Source of the DNA: a virus
Strand: one strand, 5' to 3'
IMG/VR virus record: IMGVR_UViG_3300027152_000017
Coordinates: 1-24,390 of that record
Length of the DNA stretch: 24,390 nt
Positions 3,392 through 15,510 of the stretch are shown one piece after another. The notes beneath the pieces are model-generated. The model was given only the letters and a program-made list of their open reading frames with translations, was not told where the DNA came from and did not search any database. How positions within the stretch are numbered: position 1 is the first letter of the stretch; each line of letters starts with the position of its first letter. A program made the position numbers and the translations under genes.

Positions 3392-3420
3392 TATAGAATA
3401 AGGAAAACTTGGGGGAAAAC

Positions 3421-4824
3421 ATGGGTATTTTAGATATTTTCAGTAAGAAACAAAGCGTTAATAACGAATCTAATACCCTGTTTGGTCAGACCCAATTAGG
3501 TAACAATGTTGTTTATCAAGGTGACGGTGGCAGACAAACAGTAAGCCAACAGTTGCTTTATGTAACAACAAGTAGTGTTACATCCGCAGGGCGTACCGTT
3601 GATATGTCAACGCTATCACGCAATTCAACAGTTATGGCGTGTGTGGGAGTTAAAGCCCGTGCATTAGCACAGTTGCCAATCAAGGTTATGTACCAATTAG
3701 ATGATGGCACTTATGTTGATGCAATCAAATCTGACATTGTTGGTGCAAGAGATAAGGCAAAAGCAAAGCAGGCATTAAACCTGTTGACCAACCCTAACAA
3801 TTTTCAAAGCCAATACGAATTTTGGTATCAATGGTGTATGTGGCAAGATTTGGCAGGTGAAACATTTACCCTTTGGTGGCGTAAAGACCAAAAAGATGCC
3901 AACACAACACCGATTGAAATGTACAACCTTGATTCAACGCTGATTACAGTACAGTTGACACCAAGCCGTTATCCATCATACCGTTTGACAACACCATCAT
4001 ACGGTTTTAGCAAAGATGAACCGTTGGCAAATTACCAAGTTATGCACATTAAAGAAATGGCGTGGCAAGGTTCAGCAGGTTTTAACAAAGGTATCTTGGC
4101 AACTGAATTAGTTGCGTTAGACCAAGACATTGACCTGTATGCAAACTTTGTTATGCAGAATGGTGCAAAGCCAAGCGGTATTTTTAGCACAACCCAAGTA
4201 ATCCCTGATGCTAAATACAAAGAAGTTGCCCAACGCCTAAAAGAAACATGGAACGCTATGACAGGTGGCCGTACAACTGACCAATCTAAAGCAGGCCAAG
4301 GTATGTTGCTTGACCAAGGTATGAGTTATACCCCTGTTGATATGCTTACCCTGCAAGATGCCCAAACATCAGAGTTAAAGACACAAACCATGAAGCGTTT
4401 ATGCGGATTGTTTGGTGTGCCACCTGCAATGTTGGGTATTTCTGACCAAAAGTACAACAATACACAGACTATGCTTGATGAATTCTACAAATCAACCATG
4501 TCACCAATGATTAAAAACATTACGCAAAAGCTGAAACAGCATTTGTTTAAAGGTTACCCATCCCTACACATTCAGTTTGATACAACTGAATTCTTGGAAG
4601 GTTCACCGTTAGACCAAATGAATTTTGCCGTTGCAGGCGTGAACGCAGGCGTAATGACACCTAACGAAGCCCGTGAATTCTTAGGAATGGCACAGCTTGA
4701 AGGTGCAAACGAATTAGTATCAAAGTCACAATCTAGCCAACAAGGTGCTATACAAGGCACAAGCCCACAAGATACAGGCGGTGGTGGTGGCAATCAAACA
4801 CGCAAGATGAATATTGGTAAATAA
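3421..4824 (+). CDS. Portal protein, HK97 family
   Basis: A 467-residue protein forming the dodecameric DNA entry/exit ring at one capsid vertex. Recognisable stretches are SRNSTVMACVGVKARALAQL (about residues 64-83), the central VMHIKEM segment, the LFGVPPAMLGI motif around 335-345, and the following NNTQTMLDEFYKSTM helix before the long stem helix. The glycine-rich tail (GGGGG) near the C terminus is probably disordered. An upstream in-frame TTG at 3409 is less likely than ATG 3421, which follows GGGGGA at 4-5 bases. The TAA overlaps the next ORF start (TAATG). It follows the terminase gene in the usual order. Confidence 0.93.
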   Translation: MGILDIFSKKQSVNNESNTLFGQTQLGNNVVYQGDGGRQTVSQQLLYVTTSSVTSAGRTVDMSTLSRNSTVMACVGVKARALAQLPIKVMYQLDDGTYVDAIKSDIVGARDKAKAKQALNLLTNPNNFQSQYEFWYQWCMWQDLAGETFTLWWRKDQKDANTTPIEMYNLDSTLITVQLTPSRYPSYRLTTPSYGFSKDEPLANYQVMHIKEMAWQGSAGFNKGILATELVALDQDIDLYANFVMQNGAKPSGIFSTTQVIPDAKYKEVAQRLKETWNAMTGGRTTDQSKAGQGMLLDQGMSYTPVDMLTLQDAQTSELKTQTMKRLCGLFGVPPAMLGISDQKYNNTQTMLDEFYKSTMSPMIKNITQKLKQHLFKGYPSLHIQFDTTEFLEGSPLDQMNFAVAGVNAGVMTPNEAREFLGMAQLEGANELVSKSQSSQQGAIQGTSPQDTGGGGGNQTRKMNIGK

Positions 4825-5015
4825 TGTCATTTATAGATAAAATATTTAACATTATGGGTTCACAAATAAAGAAACCTAGTGGTAAACTACCAAAAAAGCG
4901 TTTTACGCCCCACAAGATAACAGACGATAATCAAGCCATTTCTATTGGGGTAATCAATGAAGAATCTGACATTAGTTTGCGAAGCACAAGTACAGTTGGG
5001 AAGAACAGCAGATGA
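4824..5015 (+). CDS. Small basic ORF overlapping the protease start
   Basis: A 63-residue lysine/arginine-rich ORF (MSFIDKIFNIMGSQIKK, then PKKRFTPHK) starting in a TAATG overlap with the portal stop. Its last 59 bases overlap the protease gene in another frame. I recognise no family. It fills the otherwise empty 4825-4956 gap, and the tight coupling argues for translation. The possibilities are a small head-assembly factor or a coupling ORF that carries ribosomes to the protease start. Lack of a recognised family keeps confidence moderate. Confidence 0.5.
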   Translation: MSFIDKIFNIMGSQIKKPSGKLPKKRFTPHKITDDNQAISIGVINEESDISLRSTSTVGKNSR

Positions 5016-5751
5016 ATCTGCTACACCAACAGGAATAATTGAAGCCCGTGCTACAACATGGGGTGCAAGAGAGGGTGCAGACGGTAGAAAATTTTTCTAC
5101 ACACCTGAAGGTTTCATGGATTGGGCTGATGAATTCAGCAATTCAGGTAAACCAATGCCTATGTTCTTAAATCACAATGATATGGGTATGCCCGTTGGTC
5201 AATGGGATGAAGTCATGTTTGATGAACAAGGCATGACTGCAAAAGGCAAGCTGTACATGAATACAGTAGGCGGTTCAGACCTTTACGAAGTTTTAAAAGA
5301 ATCACCAATGATGTTTGGTGGTGTTTCTGTTGGTGCATACGCTGATGAATATTGTTATGTTGATGAAACAGGTATGCCATTGACAGCAGGTAAAGAAGAT
5401 GACGGATATTTCCAAATTAGCAAAGGTGGATTCCGTGAAATTTCAGTTGTTATGTATCCTAACAATCCACAAGCTGAAGTAATGAAATTAGAATCATGCT
5501 TTGAAGAAGATGGTTCACTAAATCCAAGAGTTTTAGAAAAACAATTGCGTGAAGCAGGCGTTACTAAAAAAGATGCGACCACCGCATCAAGTATTTTCAA
5601 GAAAGTATTAGAAGTGCGTGATGCACCTAAGAAACTTGAAGAAACACCAATTCAGGGTGACCCTGTTGCGGTGGTAACCGAAGCTGATGAGTTACTTCAG
5701 GCGTTGCAGTTGCGTGAATTGACCAAAGCACTTAATAAACGCATTAAATAA
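4957..5751 (+). CDS. Prohead maturation protease, HK97 gp4 / S78-like
   Basis: A 264-residue serine protease expected to cleave scaffold/delta domains inside the prohead. Candidate catalytic residues are H73 in FLNHND, S124 in FGGVSVG, and the acidic E161 in FREISVV, followed by the family-typical YPNNPQA. Residues 1-180 are the protease core. The C-terminal 80 residues (LEKQLREAGVTKKDA and charged helices) resemble the LRDAGLSxxxA segment often attached to these proteases, and may act as scaffold or be self-cleaved. ATG 4957 has GGGG six bases upstream and lies inside the preceding small ORF. The portal, protease, capsid order matches HK97-type head modules. Confidence 0.88.
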   Translation: MKNLTLVCEAQVQLGRTADESATPTGIIEARATTWGAREGADGRKFFYTPEGFMDWADEFSNSGKPMPMFLNHNDMGMPVGQWDEVMFDEQGMTAKGKLYMNTVGGSDLYEVLKESPMMFGGVSVGAYADEYCYVDETGMPLTAGKEDDGYFQISKGGFREISVVMYPNNPQAEVMKLESCFEEDGSLNPRVLEKQLREAGVTKKDATTASSIFKKVLEVRDAPKKLEETPIQGDPVAVVTEADELLQALQLRELTKALNKRIK

Positions 5752-5761
5752 GGAATTCAAA

Positions 5762-7090
5762 ATGAAAGAAGTTATTGAAAAACTAGATTCAATTGAAGCA
5801 CAACAAGTTGCTAAGATTGAAGAAGCTAAAGCAGAAGCATTTGCAAAAACTGATGCTGTTGAAGTATCTTTGACAGAAAAGCTAAACGCTATTGAAGCAA
5901 AACTATCAGAAGTAAACGCACCATCAATCATCAAGATTGAAAAGACAATTCGTGGTGATGTAAACAAGATGGTTCGTGAACAGTTGCGTGATTTTGCTAA
6001 GTCAGATTCTAAAGTTCAGAAAGAATTGAAAGTTTTTGCTGACGAATCACAGTACGAAGCGTACATGACTGAAGCATCAGCACTAACAGGCGGTGGTGCA
6101 GGTATCGGTGGTCGTACAGCGTATGACCCTGTATTCCATGCGTTGCGTTTGGCTAACCCTATGCGTGGTTTAAGCCGTGCCGTTGCAACTGATGGTGCTA
6201 CTTATCAATTCCGTGCAAAAGTTGGTAACGCAGGTGCATCATGGGGCTATGCAATCCAAAACAACGGTTCAGCAACAACAGTAAACACAAACATTTGGCA
6301 ATTAACTTTGCAAGACCTAAACTGTGCTTTCCCAATCCGTACAGCATCATTGGATGACATTGACGGTTTAGAAGCCAATGTGGTTGATGACATGATGGTT
6401 GAGTTCTCACAAGCTGAAGCATTGTCAATGATTCAAAACAATGACCAAACAGATTCACCTAATACATACGGTGGTACAAACGGTTTGCGTGGTTTAAATC
6501 AATACGGTGGTGCTAATAGCACATACACAGGCGGTACAGTAAGTGAATCTGCATTTGGTTCATCAGGTACAGGTTCTTCATCAGGTTTACATAGCGTTGC
6601 AACTTATGACCAAATTACTACAAACGGTTTTGGTTCAGCAAACAATGTTCAATACAAAGATGTGGTTAACTTTATTTACAGCTTGCCACAGCAATATTGG
6701 ACAGCAACAGCTAAGTTTATGGTTAGCCCGTTGATGTTACAAGCAATCCGTGGTTTGGTTGATGAACAAGGCAGACCAATCTATGTTGACGGTTTAGCCC
6801 GTACTGATGGTATTGTTGGCACATTGCTAGGCTTTGATGTTGTTGTTAACAAGTATTTGGAAAACCCAACATCCGCAGGCGGTTCAGCAGGTACAAACAG
6901 CCAATACCCAATGTACTTTGGTGATTGGTCACGCTGTCACGCAATCGTTGACCGTTTGAACATGGTTCTTCGCAGATATGACCAAACACAAGTTGGTTTC
7001 ATCACATTCTTTGGTGAAAAGCGTTTGGCAACATCAGTTGTTGACCCATTTGCATTAGTTCGTTACCGTTCTACTGCAACAGGTGCTTAA
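5762..7090 (+). CDS. Major capsid protein 1, HK97 fold, with delta domain
   Basis: A 442-residue shell protein. Residues 1 to about 100 are charged and heptad-like (IEKLDSIEAQQVAKIEEAKAE and similar), matching the coiled-coil delta domain that scaffolds HK97 proheads and is removed by the protease. The mature part probably begins near E104 (EASALTGGGAGIGG). Capsid signatures include NPMRGLSR, FPIRTASLDDI, the glycine-rich GLRGLNQYGG loop, LPQQYW and the C-terminal VGFITFFGEKR. A Gly/Ser-rich insertion around 245-275 may be a surface loop. It has a strong ribosome site (AAGGA) and is followed directly by an intrinsic terminator, which fits high expression. The next gene is a clear paralogue. 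Confidence 0.93.
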   Translation: MKEVIEKLDSIEAQQVAKIEEAKAEAFAKTDAVEVSLTEKLNAIEAKLSEVNAPSIIKIEKTIRGDVNKMVREQLRDFAKSDSKVQKELKVFADESQYEAYMTEASALTGGGAGIGGRTAYDPVFHALRLANPMRGLSRAVATDGATYQFRAKVGNAGASWGYAIQNNGSATTVNTNIWQLTLQDLNCAFPIRTASLDDIDGLEANVVDDMMVEFSQAEALSMIQNNDQTDSPNTYGGTNGLRGLNQYGGANSTYTGGTVSESAFGSSGTGSSSGLHSVATYDQITTNGFGSANNVQYKDVVNFIYSLPQQYWTATAKFMVSPLMLQAIRGLVDEQGRPIYVDGLARTDGIVGTLLGFDVVVNKYLENPTSAGGSAGTNSQYPMYFGDWSRCHAIVDRLNMVLRRYDQTQVGFITFFGEKRLATSVVDPFALVRYRSTATGA

Positions 7091-7092
7091 TT

Positions 7093-7123
7093 AAGGATGG
7101 GGGTGAAAGCCCCCACCTTTTTT
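7093..7123 (+). terminator. Intrinsic terminator between the two capsid genes
   Basis: AAGG-A-TGGGGG (7093-7103) pairs with CCCCCACCTT (7110-7119) around the loop TGAAAG, giving a 10-bp stem with one bulged A. It is followed by a run of six T at 7118-7123. It lies three bases after the first capsid stop and ends before the second capsid ribosome site. It should make the second gene depend on read-through or on an unseen promoter. Confidence 0.85.
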
Positions 7124-7145
7124 ACAACTTATTATGGAAATAAAC

Positions 7146-8189
7146 ATGAAAACCAAACCAATTCTTGAAGCCATCAAAACAGCCTTAAAAGAAGGCGAAG
7201 CAACAGTAAACTTAAATGAAGCATCAGCACTAACAGGTTCAGGTAGCGGTGTTGGTGGTCGTGTTATTTATGATGATGCTTTTGCATCAAAGCGTGAACA
7301 TAACCCATTGCGTGATGTTTCACGAAAGATTATTACAAGCGGTTCAGACGAAGCGTTTGTTGTTAAAACAGGTAACGCCACATTAATTCAAAGTGGTACA
7401 GATAACCCGTGGGGCTATCCAATCAATAACAATACAGGTTCACCAAACATTGCAACATCATTTTGGCAATTGCCTGTACGCTGTATCAATGCAAGCGTAC
7501 CCGTAAGAACGGCTGTATTGTCAGACATTAATTATCTTGAAGAAACTATTGCTGAAGATTTGTGGATGGAATTTTCGCAACAAGAGAGTTTGGGAATGAT
7601 GTTCAATAATGACCAAGCAGGTTCAACAACTGTTAACTATGGTGCGACAAGCGGTTTGCGTGGTTTAAATAGTTATGCAGGTTCAACTTCATCAGCATCA
7701 TTTGGTACAAGCGGTTCAGCCATTACTAACGGTTTGCACACAGTTTTGCAAGTTCAGCAAGCATCAGCAACAGCAGTTTCTTATGATGACTTGGCTAATT
7801 TGCAAGGTGCTTTGCCATCACAGTATTTATACAAAGATACAACTGCATGGATGATGCACCCAAGCACAATTCAGGCATTGCGTAAGCTAAAGGCATCAAC
7901 AACTGCCAATAATTTCTTAGAAATTGGTAGTGAAGATGGCGGTGCTGTTATTTATATCTTTGGTCATAAAGTTATTCCAAACCCGTACATGGATGTTGCA
8001 GGTGACGGTAAGTATCCTGTTTATCTTGGCGAGTGGGATAGATTCTTTACTATTGCAGACAACGAAGAAATGTCAATTAAATTGACTGAACAAACATCAG
8101 TTGGTTTCATTACTTTCTATGCTGAAAAGCGTGTGTGTTCAACAATTCGTGATGTATTCGCAGGTGTGCGTTTAGTTGGTGTTGCTTAA
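7146..8189 (+). CDS. Major capsid protein 2, HK97-fold paralogue lacking delta domain
   Basis: A 347-residue second capsid-type protein. It aligns along its length with the mature part of the upstream capsid protein: EASALTG (residue 25), GGR.IYDDAF, NPLRDVSR, VPVRTAVLSDI, MMFNNDQ, SGLRGLNSY, LPSQYLY, YPVYLGEWDR and VGFITFYAEKR. It has only about 24 residues before EASALTG, against about 103 in the first, so the scaffold-like domain is missing. ATG 7146 is chosen because GGAAA lies six bases upstream; the in-frame ATG 7134 has no ribosome site. It may form a subset of capsomers (for example vertices), be an alternative shell subunit, or be a decoration-like protein. The terminator just upstream suggests lower expression than the first copy. 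Confidence 0.85.
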   Translation: MKTKPILEAIKTALKEGEATVNLNEASALTGSGSGVGGRVIYDDAFASKREHNPLRDVSRKIITSGSDEAFVVKTGNATLIQSGTDNPWGYPINNNTGSPNIATSFWQLPVRCINASVPVRTAVLSDINYLEETIAEDLWMEFSQQESLGMMFNNDQAGSTTVNYGATSGLRGLNSYAGSTSSASFGTSGSAITNGLHTVLQVQQASATAVSYDDLANLQGALPSQYLYKDTTAWMMHPSTIQALRKLKASTTANNFLEIGSEDGGAVIYIFGHKVIPNPYMDVAGDGKYPVYLGEWDRFFTIADNEEMSIKLTEQTSVGFITFYAEKRVCSTIRDVFAGVRLVGVA

Positions 8190-8203: not shown

Positions 8204-8869
8204 ATGGCAAGCGATTATTTAGGTATTGCCCCAAACCTTACACAAAACCGCAATCCGTTCAACTATGAAAAGGTTGAACAGATTGGCAGGGATTTTGTAA
8301 CGGCATGGTTGACACTTGACCAAATCACCAATCAGTTAAACCTGTTTGAAGATGAAAGCCAAGATGCTTACCTGCAAGGGTTAGAAATTGCAACACGCAT
8401 GGCGATTGAAGATTATTTGGGAATGGCAATATTCCCAACTCAATACCGTGTGTTCTATGGCAACCCTGCTGTTGCAGGTACAGCCCTAAGTTTGGATTTG
8501 CCTGAAACAACGCAGAATCAACAAGGTCAAGTTGGTGTAACAATCAATTCTGTTAAGTTTTGGAATGGTGACATACCATCAGTATTGCAAACTTTATCAC
8601 CATCAAGTTATCAGTATGATTCAACAGGCAACAAGGTTATTTTGAATTCAATGCCGTCAACAATTAGTACACAGGTTACTAATCCAATGGTAGTTGAATA
8701 CACAACAGCCCGTTCACCTTTGGCAAACTACCCTGTAATTCAACAGGCAGGTTTGTTGTTGTTAACACATTTATATAACAATCGTGCAAACAGTAATGAA
8801 CGCATCATGCACGAAATACCGTTTGGCGTTGCCCAATTGCTTAGACCATACAAACCATTGGTGATGTAA
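8204..8869 (+). CDS. Head-tail connector, gp6-like adaptor
   Basis: A 221-residue protein likely to form the adaptor ring under the portal. The N-terminal half is helical and ends in an IATRMAIEDYLGMAIFPTQYR segment, the usual helix leading into the beta part of gp6-like connectors. The C terminus (QAGLLLLTHLYNNRAN, then IPFGVAQLLRPYK) matches the family pattern of a helix with an N-R pair followed by IPxGVxxLLxPY. The ribosome site AAGG precedes ATG 8204. It overlaps the next gene by one base (TAATG), fitting the connector, closure, terminator order. Confidence 0.82.
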   Translation: MASDYLGIAPNLTQNRNPFNYEKVEQIGRDFVTAWLTLDQITNQLNLFEDESQDAYLQGLEIATRMAIEDYLGMAIFPTQYRVFYGNPAVAGTALSLDLPETTQNQQGQVGVTINSVKFWNGDIPSVLQTLSPSSYQYDSTGNKVILNSMPSTISTQVTNPMVVEYTTARSPLANYPVIQQAGLLLLTHLYNNRANSNERIMHEIPFGVAQLLRPYKPLVM

Positions 8870-14474: not shown

Positions 14475-15076
14475 ATGTAATTGCACCTGTTGATAATACA
14501 AATAACATCCGTTACGCTGATTTTGTGCGTGTTACAACGCCATCAGCAACATACCGTTTTGCCACAACACCAATGGCAATAACCGTACCTGCTGTTGATG
14601 CACAACCATTTGATGCTTTAGGTCAACTTATTCAAATAGGTGATGCACAAAGGGATATTAAATCCACGGCTAATGAAACATCATTTACTTTAGTTGGTAT
14701 TGACACAGCCATGTTAGGTTGGGTATTAAGCCAAGAAGTTAAAGGTTCACAAATTGAAGCGTGGCACGGTTTCTTTAATACTAATGGTGAGTTAATTACA
14801 ACAGGTGGTACAGGTGGTTTGTATCAGTTCTTTAATGGTTACATTAATTCATTTAGTATTAATGAACAATGGATGGAAGAAGTAAGAGAATTTGTTGGAG
14901 TAATAAATGTTTCAGCATCATCAATTCAACTTATTCTTAAAAACCGTACAGCAGGAAGATACACTAACGATAACAGTTGGCAATTTTATAATCCAAGCGA
15001 TACAAGCATGAACCGTGTTGCGTTTGTATCAACAATAAATTATTTCTTTGGTAAGGGGGCACAGCCCAATAGCTAA
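14471..15076 (+). CDS. Tail-tip / baseplate structural protein
   Basis: A 201-residue beta-rich protein. The segments LGQLIQIGDAQRDIKST, TSFTLVGIDTAMLGWVLSQE and a C-terminal NRTAGRYTNDNSWQFYNPSD with SMNRVAFVSTINYFFGK form a pattern I know from phage tail-tip proteins of unknown exact function (GRxTNxxSW ... DxSM ... FG). It is coupled by ATGA to the gene before and by TAATG to the GNAT-like gene after it. It is probably part of the ring between the Dit-like protein and the J-like tip. Confidence 0.55.
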   Translation: MNVIAPVDNTNNIRYADFVRVTTPSATYRFATTPMAITVPAVDAQPFDALGQLIQIGDAQRDIKSTANETSFTLVGIDTAMLGWVLSQEVKGSQIEAWHGFFNTNGELITTGGTGGLYQFFNGYINSFSINEQWMEEVREFVGVINVSASSIQLILKNRTAGRYTNDNSWQFYNPSDTSMNRVAFVSTINYFFGKGAQPNS

Positions 15077-15510
15077 TGATTAGACAAGCGACAAAATACG
15101 ATAAAACTCAAATAATAGAAATGATGCAGTTGTTCAGGGCTGAAAGCCATATAGAACAATACAAAGATTTAGATAATGTTGATTATTGGAATAGATTGTT
15201 AGATACCATATTGGCAGGTCAAGGCATTATTTATATTGAAGATGGTGTTGGTTTAATTATGGCAATTATTTTGCCAACTATTTGGTGCGATAAGACTTTG
15301 TATATGCAGGAATTAGCATGGTATGTAAAACCTGAACATAGAAACACAACAATAGGTTACAGATTGTTAAAATCTTATATTAAATACGGTAATAAATTAA
15401 AACATGAGGGCAGAATTAAAATGTTTGCAATAGCAAAAATGGTTACAAGCCCTGATGTAAAGTATGAAAAATTTGGCTTTGCAAAACTAGATGAAAATTG
15501 GGTTCAATGA
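15076..15510 (+). CDS. GNAT-fold acetyltransferase-like protein
   Basis: A 144-residue protein with a GNAT layout: N-terminal helix region (IRQATKYDKTQIIEMMQLF), central strands (GVGLIMAIILPTIW), motif A strand ELAWYV at 79-84 followed by PEHRNTTIGYRLLKSY, and a C-terminal YEKFGFAKLDE. The acetyl-CoA pyrophosphate loop is usually [RQ]xxGx[GA]; here it is R89-N-T-T-I-G94, so one expected glycine is threonine and activity is uncertain. All six arginines I count use AGA/AGG, while flanking tail genes favour CGT. It is overlapped by neighbours at both ends (TAATG, ATGATG), so it is embedded in the tail-tip operon. Its substrate is unknown; a structural use of the fold is also possible. Confidence 0.72.
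   Translation: MIRQATKYDKTQIIEMMQLFRAESHIEQYKDLDNVDYWNRLLDTILAGQGIIYIEDGVGLIMAIILPTIWCDKTLYMQELAWYVKPEHRNTTIGYRLLKSYIKYGNKLKHEGRIKMFAIAKMVTSPDVKYEKFGFAKLDENWVQ

Follow-up and report, generated by a model that had tools for sequence, protein, structure and literature searches.

A conserved pair of paralogous HK97-fold capsid genes whose second member is a candidate vertex subunit

It is a standing puzzle in quasi-equivalence why most HK97-fold phages build pentamers and hexamers from a single protein whereas T4 uses two for the five- and six-fold sites. An excerpted account of the T4 head describes gp24* as filling 11 vertices as pentamers and as probably derived from gp23 by duplication; gp24 loses 10 residues compared with 65 for gp23, and mutations in gp23 can bypass gp24 (PMC9958956). 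Part of a second article gives 55 copies of gp24 (PMC5694885). A further precedent is the two-component Family 2B encapsulin of Streptomyces lydicus, in which two HK97-fold proteins are reported to co-assemble with variable composition and irregular tiling (PMC12407261). In the open-access literature on tailed phages with two capsid proteins we found T4 and jumbo phages, and no description of the pair analysed here, M1 and M2. The expression 'second major capsid protein' was followed up and set aside, as it denotes neighbouring copies of one protein (PMC11445458).

The window, that is, the whole stretch of DNA analysed, is a 24,390-base virus record carrying a head-tail module of the siphophage type. 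The order of genes on its + strand is terminase small subunit, portal, S78 protease, M1, M2, connector, tail genes, tape measure and tail fibre J. The portal gene (3409–4824, +) matched TIGR01537 (portal_HK97) over cut-off with 176.9 bits, and the gene for a prohead protease of the S78/HK97 type (4957–5751, +) matched PF04586 over cut-off (E 2e-9) and TIGR01543 under its curated cut-off (E 1.8e-9). M1 (5762–7090, +) encodes a major capsid protein of 442 aa with an HK97 fold and an N-terminal delta-like domain, and M2 (7146–8189, +) a second HK97-fold capsid protein of 347 aa; the next gene after M2 is that for a head-tail connector (8204–8869, +; phrog_442, TIGR01560). The first-pass annotation had started M2 at 7134 (351 aa), which is probably 12 bases early, since both the relatives and the spacing of a weak Shine-Dalgarno sequence (GGA, 7136–7138, +) favour the ATG at 7146. 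Elsewhere in the window, the packaging module has at its left end a gene (38–1153; phrog_498, phrog_620) in which a ParB-like domain and a DNA methyltransferase are joined, and an acetyltransferase-like gene (15076–15510; phrog_1249) lies within the tail gene block. The window contained no Rfam matches and no tandem-repeat arrays, the latter ruling out a repeat artefact.

Both reading frames lie where they had first been drawn, and the homology claimed for their products is borne out by BLASTP and by profiles. M1 and M2 are identical at 132 of 359 aligned residues (37%; 212 bits, E 1e-69), and a comparison of the two family profiles gave a probability of 100 and an E of 9.8e-87, with 41% identity over 315 columns. 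Both proteins matched PF05065 over cut-off (104.8 bits for M1 and 75.9 bits for M2), TIGR01554 over its curated cut-off, and phrog_10, 'major head protein'. As each genome has two PF05065 matches, caution is needed before any such match is taken as 'the' capsid marker. All the motifs that had been listed as shared (EASALTG, NNDQ, GLRGLN, LPxQY and VGFITFxxEKR) were found in both proteins. Also as first described, M2 does not have the long N terminus of M1: 103 residues precede EASALTG in M1 and 24 in M2. In relatives, the median number of residues ahead of an EASALTG-like motif is 104 for M1 (motif pattern found in 213 of 248 proteins) and 25 for M2 (211 of 252), and the 248 M1 proteins are 435–477 aa long. 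The relatives' lengths and a low-confidence model, in which helices span residues 2–49, 63–80 and 95–103, suggest that codons 1–103 of M1 (5762–6070, +) form a helical, delta-like (scaffold) region. M1 has both this region and an upstream protease gene; the region is missing from M2.

Structure prediction, which had been proposed as a check, yielded a full HK97 fold for M2 (pLDDT 74.6) and a weaker AlphaFold model for M1 (mean pLDDT 58.2, which is low). The best PDB match of both was the capsid protein of the Rhodobacter capsulatus gene transfer agent (RcGTA), with a Foldseek E of 6.5e-19 for M2 and an E of 8.7e-17 for M1; in a VIA comparison with this protein the M2 model gave Z 23.2 over 262 residues at an rmsd of 4.7. 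Since the same RcGTA chains came top for M1 and M2, the fold comparison is blind to the distinction between pentamer and hexamer subunits. The E-loop region of M2 is longer by an insert of 7 residues, and in the A-domain region M1 occupies 18 additional columns; M1 also has a GRPIY loop motif that is lost from M2. With domain borders that we assigned from the model and the known HK97 topology, the ratio of between-family to within-family identity was 0.54 for the A-domain, 0.56 for the E-loop, 0.54 for the C-terminal P-domain, 0.69 for the spine helix and 0.77 for the N-arm. L041 and L077 were omitted from the 55 M2 representatives in analysis A1, and L083 as well in A3 and A4. Divergence is not limited to the A-domain at the capsomer centre, and the domain pattern therefore gives no pointer to five-fold packing. 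The N-arm diverged least, and inter-subunit contacts common to M1 and M2 may have been kept there.

A 21-base block coding for EASALTG had been noted in both genes. Its two copies (6070–6090 and 7217–7237, both +) are indeed identical in the window, but the weight placed on this identity did not hold, as it is not conserved at the DNA level in relatives: in the 58 of 181 pairs that have EASALTG in both proteins, the 21 codon bases are never identical (0/58). This rules out a recombination or regulatory element. The copies differ on average by 4.1 bases within a genome versus 4.6 between genomes (permutation p 0.0015), and the identity is best read as conserved protein sequence combined with a shared codon taste.

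Relatives were collected by IMG/VR searches that took the best 80 of 105 with the M2 query, 80 of 471 with the M1 query and 80 of 547 with the M1 family query; the M1 and M2 of phage P19250A as queries gave 59 and 33, and the most distant M2 found gave 23 loci. One contig may count as two loci, and the 225 loci with a complete pair correspond to 181 distinct sequences. The search for the same pair in related phages, suggested at the outset, showed it to be common: the order protease-M1-M2-connector occurs in 266 of 288 relative loci, always with M1 before M2, as well as in an isolated Methylophilaceae phage, P19250A (KX815270.1; M1 at 4600–5988, M2 at 6066–7124). Of the 22 loci without a full pair, 13 have M1 less than 1,500 bases from the end of the available sequence and 7 have M2 near its start; in the last two, M2 is cut at the sequence end (L165) or the sequence stops just inside M1 (L261). 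The first set of 157 loci comprised 151 with both genes, 3 that stop inside the region and 3 that begin in or just before M2, such that both genes are present in 151/151 loci with room for them and M1 is never alone where there is room. Among the 23 loci from the most distant M2, the order was the same wherever both genes fit. M2 was also seen on six metagenome-assembled bacterial contigs, one of them partial. P19250A was the only one of 50,697 public phage records with M2, and in 369 bacterial genomes of one class the pair occurred only in a contig already found. At one locus (L037), M1 is split between two frames.

In a maximum-likelihood tree of capsid proteins, built from the M1 and M2 of 34 of the 63 pairs selected and, as outgroup, from 4 of 21 other records, support was 94/99 for an M1 clade, 99/95 for an M2 clade and 100/100 for the joint clade. 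M1 and M2 are thus sister clades, consistent with one duplication older than the sampled group. A single-copy close relative by which to date it was not found, the next M1 relatives being 21–30% identical over 28–70% of M1; this leaves a distant outgroup, and long branches that meet there were flagged in the tree. With outgroups this far and the bootstrap unsettled, a single-copy relative yet to be discovered could fall inside the joint clade. The median dN/dS was 0.122 for M2 (67 of 76 pairs, maximum 0.318) and 0.086 for M1 (73 of 76 pairs), computed for pairs with dS >0.03 and the gene present in both partners; medians for neighbouring genes were 0.120 (protease), 0.104 (connector) and 0.062 (portal). 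Decay of the M2 frame in relatives, the outcome that the first-pass annotation had set against its own reading, was looked for and not seen, as 250 of 252 complete frames run to the end. The pair is real, conserved and under selection. Duplication followed by specialisation, as originally proposed, is well supported by the sister clades, strict co-occurrence, purifying selection on both genes, and the asymmetry of the N termini and of the expression signals.

The M1-M2 spacer contains the terminator-like element that had been placed ahead of M2 (7098–7123, +), consisting of a GC-rich hairpin (7098–7115) and a T run (TTTTTT, 7118–7123). The folding energy of the spacer is −19.2 kcal/mol (z −3.7), and none of 200 shuffles was as good. 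A search for sigma-70-like promoters listed none on the + strand from 7090 to 7146. Across relatives, a hairpin whose stem has 5 or more uninterrupted pairs, at least 4 of them G-C, was present in 116 of 122 distinct spacers (30–120 bases and free of N, from the 181 pairs) versus 1 of 117 for the last 60 bases of M1 and 6 of 111 for the first 60 bases of M2. In five of the six spacers that lack such a hairpin, a GC-rich stem can be seen by eye that contains a bulge or carries a large loop; in L029, M1 extends into the stem, which is why the spacer begins inside it. The letters of the stem vary freely with pairing retained, there being several pair types per position and 92 distinct stem-loops. 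At least 4 T occur in the 8 bases after the stem in 94 of 122 spacers and fewer than 4 in the other 28; the hairpin may therefore serve RNA stability or processing, and not termination, in some lineages. Spacers such as those of L018, L026 and L034 retain a GC-rich hairpin without a clear T run.

Translation signals are likewise asymmetric. The Shine-Dalgarno match of M1 is longer than that of M2 in 141 of the 181 distinct pairs, equal in 37 and shorter in 3, and preferred codons are more frequent in M1 in 167 (C-ending), 141 (CGT) and 137 (GGT) pairs. Means for these three measures, in the same order, are 0.331, 0.437 and 0.512 for M2; 0.308, 0.390 and 0.417 for the protease; 0.323, 0.301 and 0.325 for the connector; and 0.342, 0.251 and 0.454 for the portal, so that M2 outranks the protease and the connector in every measure and the portal in two. 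Together, the hairpin, the weaker ribosome-binding site and the lower codon bias suggest a reduced production of M2, and these signals would fit an output below that of M1 but above that of most head proteins. Against an argument from ratios, a terminator after the capsid gene lowers every downstream gene and not M2 alone, and terminators behind the capsid gene also occur in phages with one such gene (T7).

By analogy with T4 and from the expression signals, the likeliest role of M2 is that of a minor capsid subunit dedicated to the vertices. We lean towards the specific model in which it fills the pentameric vertices and co-assembles with M1 hexamers scaffolded by the delta domain of M1. M1 and M2 would then be ancient tandem paralogues building one shell. 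M1 would be the abundant subunit that makes the hexamers; its delta domain would scaffold the prohead and is expected to be removed by the upstream S78 protease. M2, having no scaffold of its own, would enter the prohead through contacts with M1 and form the pentamer at each vertex that the portal leaves free. A genome of ∼38 kb suggests T=7, a geometry with 360 hexamer copies and 55 non-portal vertex copies, which would correspond to 360 M1 and 55 M2. The GC-rich hairpin behind M1 would end or trim most M1 messages, and M2 would in that case be made mainly by readthrough, with its weaker ribosome-binding site and codon bias. A search for virion proteomics of a relative found none.

It is doubtful that M2 is instead a minor component of a mixed shell of variable composition, co-assembling at many positions including hexamers and adding stability or surface variety. 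The S. lydicus encapsulin (PMC12407261) is a precedent for two HK97-fold proteins in variable proportions, and M2 retains the whole fold and is most M1-like in its N-arm. However, ∼40% identity, the loss of the GRPIY A-loop motif and the A-domain deletions in M2 put the two proteins far apart for interchangeable subunits, and their strict one-to-one retention suggests a fixed position. A special local site (the hexamers or collar encircling the portal, or else an initiation ring) in place of the full set of vertices would suit a scaffold-less protein that has lower expression signals than M1 and is encoded directly before the connector, but it is improbable: the codon bias of M2 exceeds that of the connector (3/3 measures) and of the portal (2/3), hinting at more copies than a 5–12-mer needs, and we know of no HK97-fold precedent for a capsid paralogue at such a site. 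Very improbable is a role outside the virion, whether in a separate small encapsulin-like compartment or in assembly only, for example in head size control. Encapsulins are not known to have a delta domain, which M2 lacks too, and are among its structural matches, and the head size of P4 is controlled by a second protein; yet the encapsulin matches reach Z 16 versus 23 for the best phage-type capsids, no cargo gene was recognised nearby, and M2 always lies within the head module. The chance that M2 survives by accident, as a superfluous or decaying duplicate, is negligible: no support for it was found, and the intact frames, the dN/dS values and the retention of M2 in every lineage with room rule out pseudogene decay, barring biased sampling.

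Large domain gains among relatives affected M2 only, with an E-loop insert at three loci and an N-terminal fusion at four; nothing comparable was seen in 248 M1 proteins. The E-loop insert, of ∼70 residues, is found in L077 (6001–7239), L078 and L079; that of L077, the one scanned, matched phrog_38233 (tail fiber protein) and phrog_21413. These inserts are a candidate for natural surface display on a minor shell subunit. The fused N-terminal domain, of ∼100 residues, is present in L086 (6576–7154), L096 (5931–7253), L122 (5679–7010) and L128 (2807–4138), and that of L096, again the one scanned, matched phrog_2859. The 'major capsid protein' gene of Roseobacter phage CRP-406 starts with this domain, and the corresponding gene of Synechococcus phage S-CBS1 has it close to its start; a capsid maturation protease shares it too. 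Because L086 is otherwise very near the window (M1 94%), the fused domain appears to be gained or lost quickly. A tolerance of extra domains in M2, as a minor subunit, fits a low-copy position in the shell.

Taken more broadly, we see about an even chance that small tailed phages of fresh water, forming a large and mostly uncultured group, arrived independently at a two-protein shell like that of T4. Only one of its subunits would carry a fused scaffold, and this delta-bearing protein would recruit a vertex paralogue that has none. For some lineages, the minor subunit would then be a platform for added domains, either tail-fibre-like in the E-loop and expected to be exposed, or borrowed from the N terminus of a capsid gene and expected to lie on the inner side of the head. 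As a second and apparently independent example, a ∼38 kb phage whose scaffold is built in would make a direct comparison possible, its genome being small enough for dissection, and a defined head part would replace the 'hypothetical protein' of a freshwater phage group that is common.

Among known systems, P19250A has the same gene order, with M1 64% and M2 53% identical to those of the window; its record labels M1 'gene transfer agent capsid protein' and M2 'hypothetical protein'. The RcGTA capsid (6tb9, 6tsu) is the best PDB match of M1 and M2 in sequence and fold, but at 16–18% identity, and only one capsid protein, Rcc01687, is among the matches. Family 2B encapsulins are not known to have a protease or a delta domain. 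The S. lydicus particle resembles the proposed shell in having two HK97-fold proteins; it differs in being non-viral, and the match is at the fold level only. An M1/M2 operon encoding a two-component encapsulin is ruled out by the place of the pair between phage protease and portal genes and a connector gene.

The likeness to T4 extends to several features. T4 gp23 and gp24 are neighbouring HK97-fold paralogues, and the propeptide of the major protein is long and that of the minor one very short (65 and 10 residues lost); the medians of 104 (M1) and 25 (M2) residues before the motif may correspond to such propeptides in length. The T4 record shows gene 23, a GC-rich stem-loop with six T, segD and gene 24, annotated as 'capsid vertex protein', so that a terminator-type hairpin follows the major gene in both systems. 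An endonuclease gene can stand between the paralogues in both: T4 segD encodes a GIY-YIG endonuclease on the opposite strand, and L041 has a homing-endonuclease ORF (5333–5986; NUMOD3, phrog_314) in the same place, along with an M2 frame shortened at its C terminus. The differences are that T4 has separate scaffold genes whereas M1 carries a scaffold-like delta domain, that identity between the T4 paralogues is ∼20% in the excerpted account compared with ∼40% for M1 and M2, and that M1 and M2 match PF05065 and TIGR01554 and belong to a genome of ∼38 kb. A phmmer search of M2 against PDB sequences, up to E 1, returned 7 sequences, none named T4, though a distant link to gp24 may exist; the absence of gp24 among the 50 structural matches listed for M2 says nothing either way. 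The duplication that gave M1 and M2 looks independent of that in T4, and the anatomy of the two systems is closely parallel without implying descent from T4.
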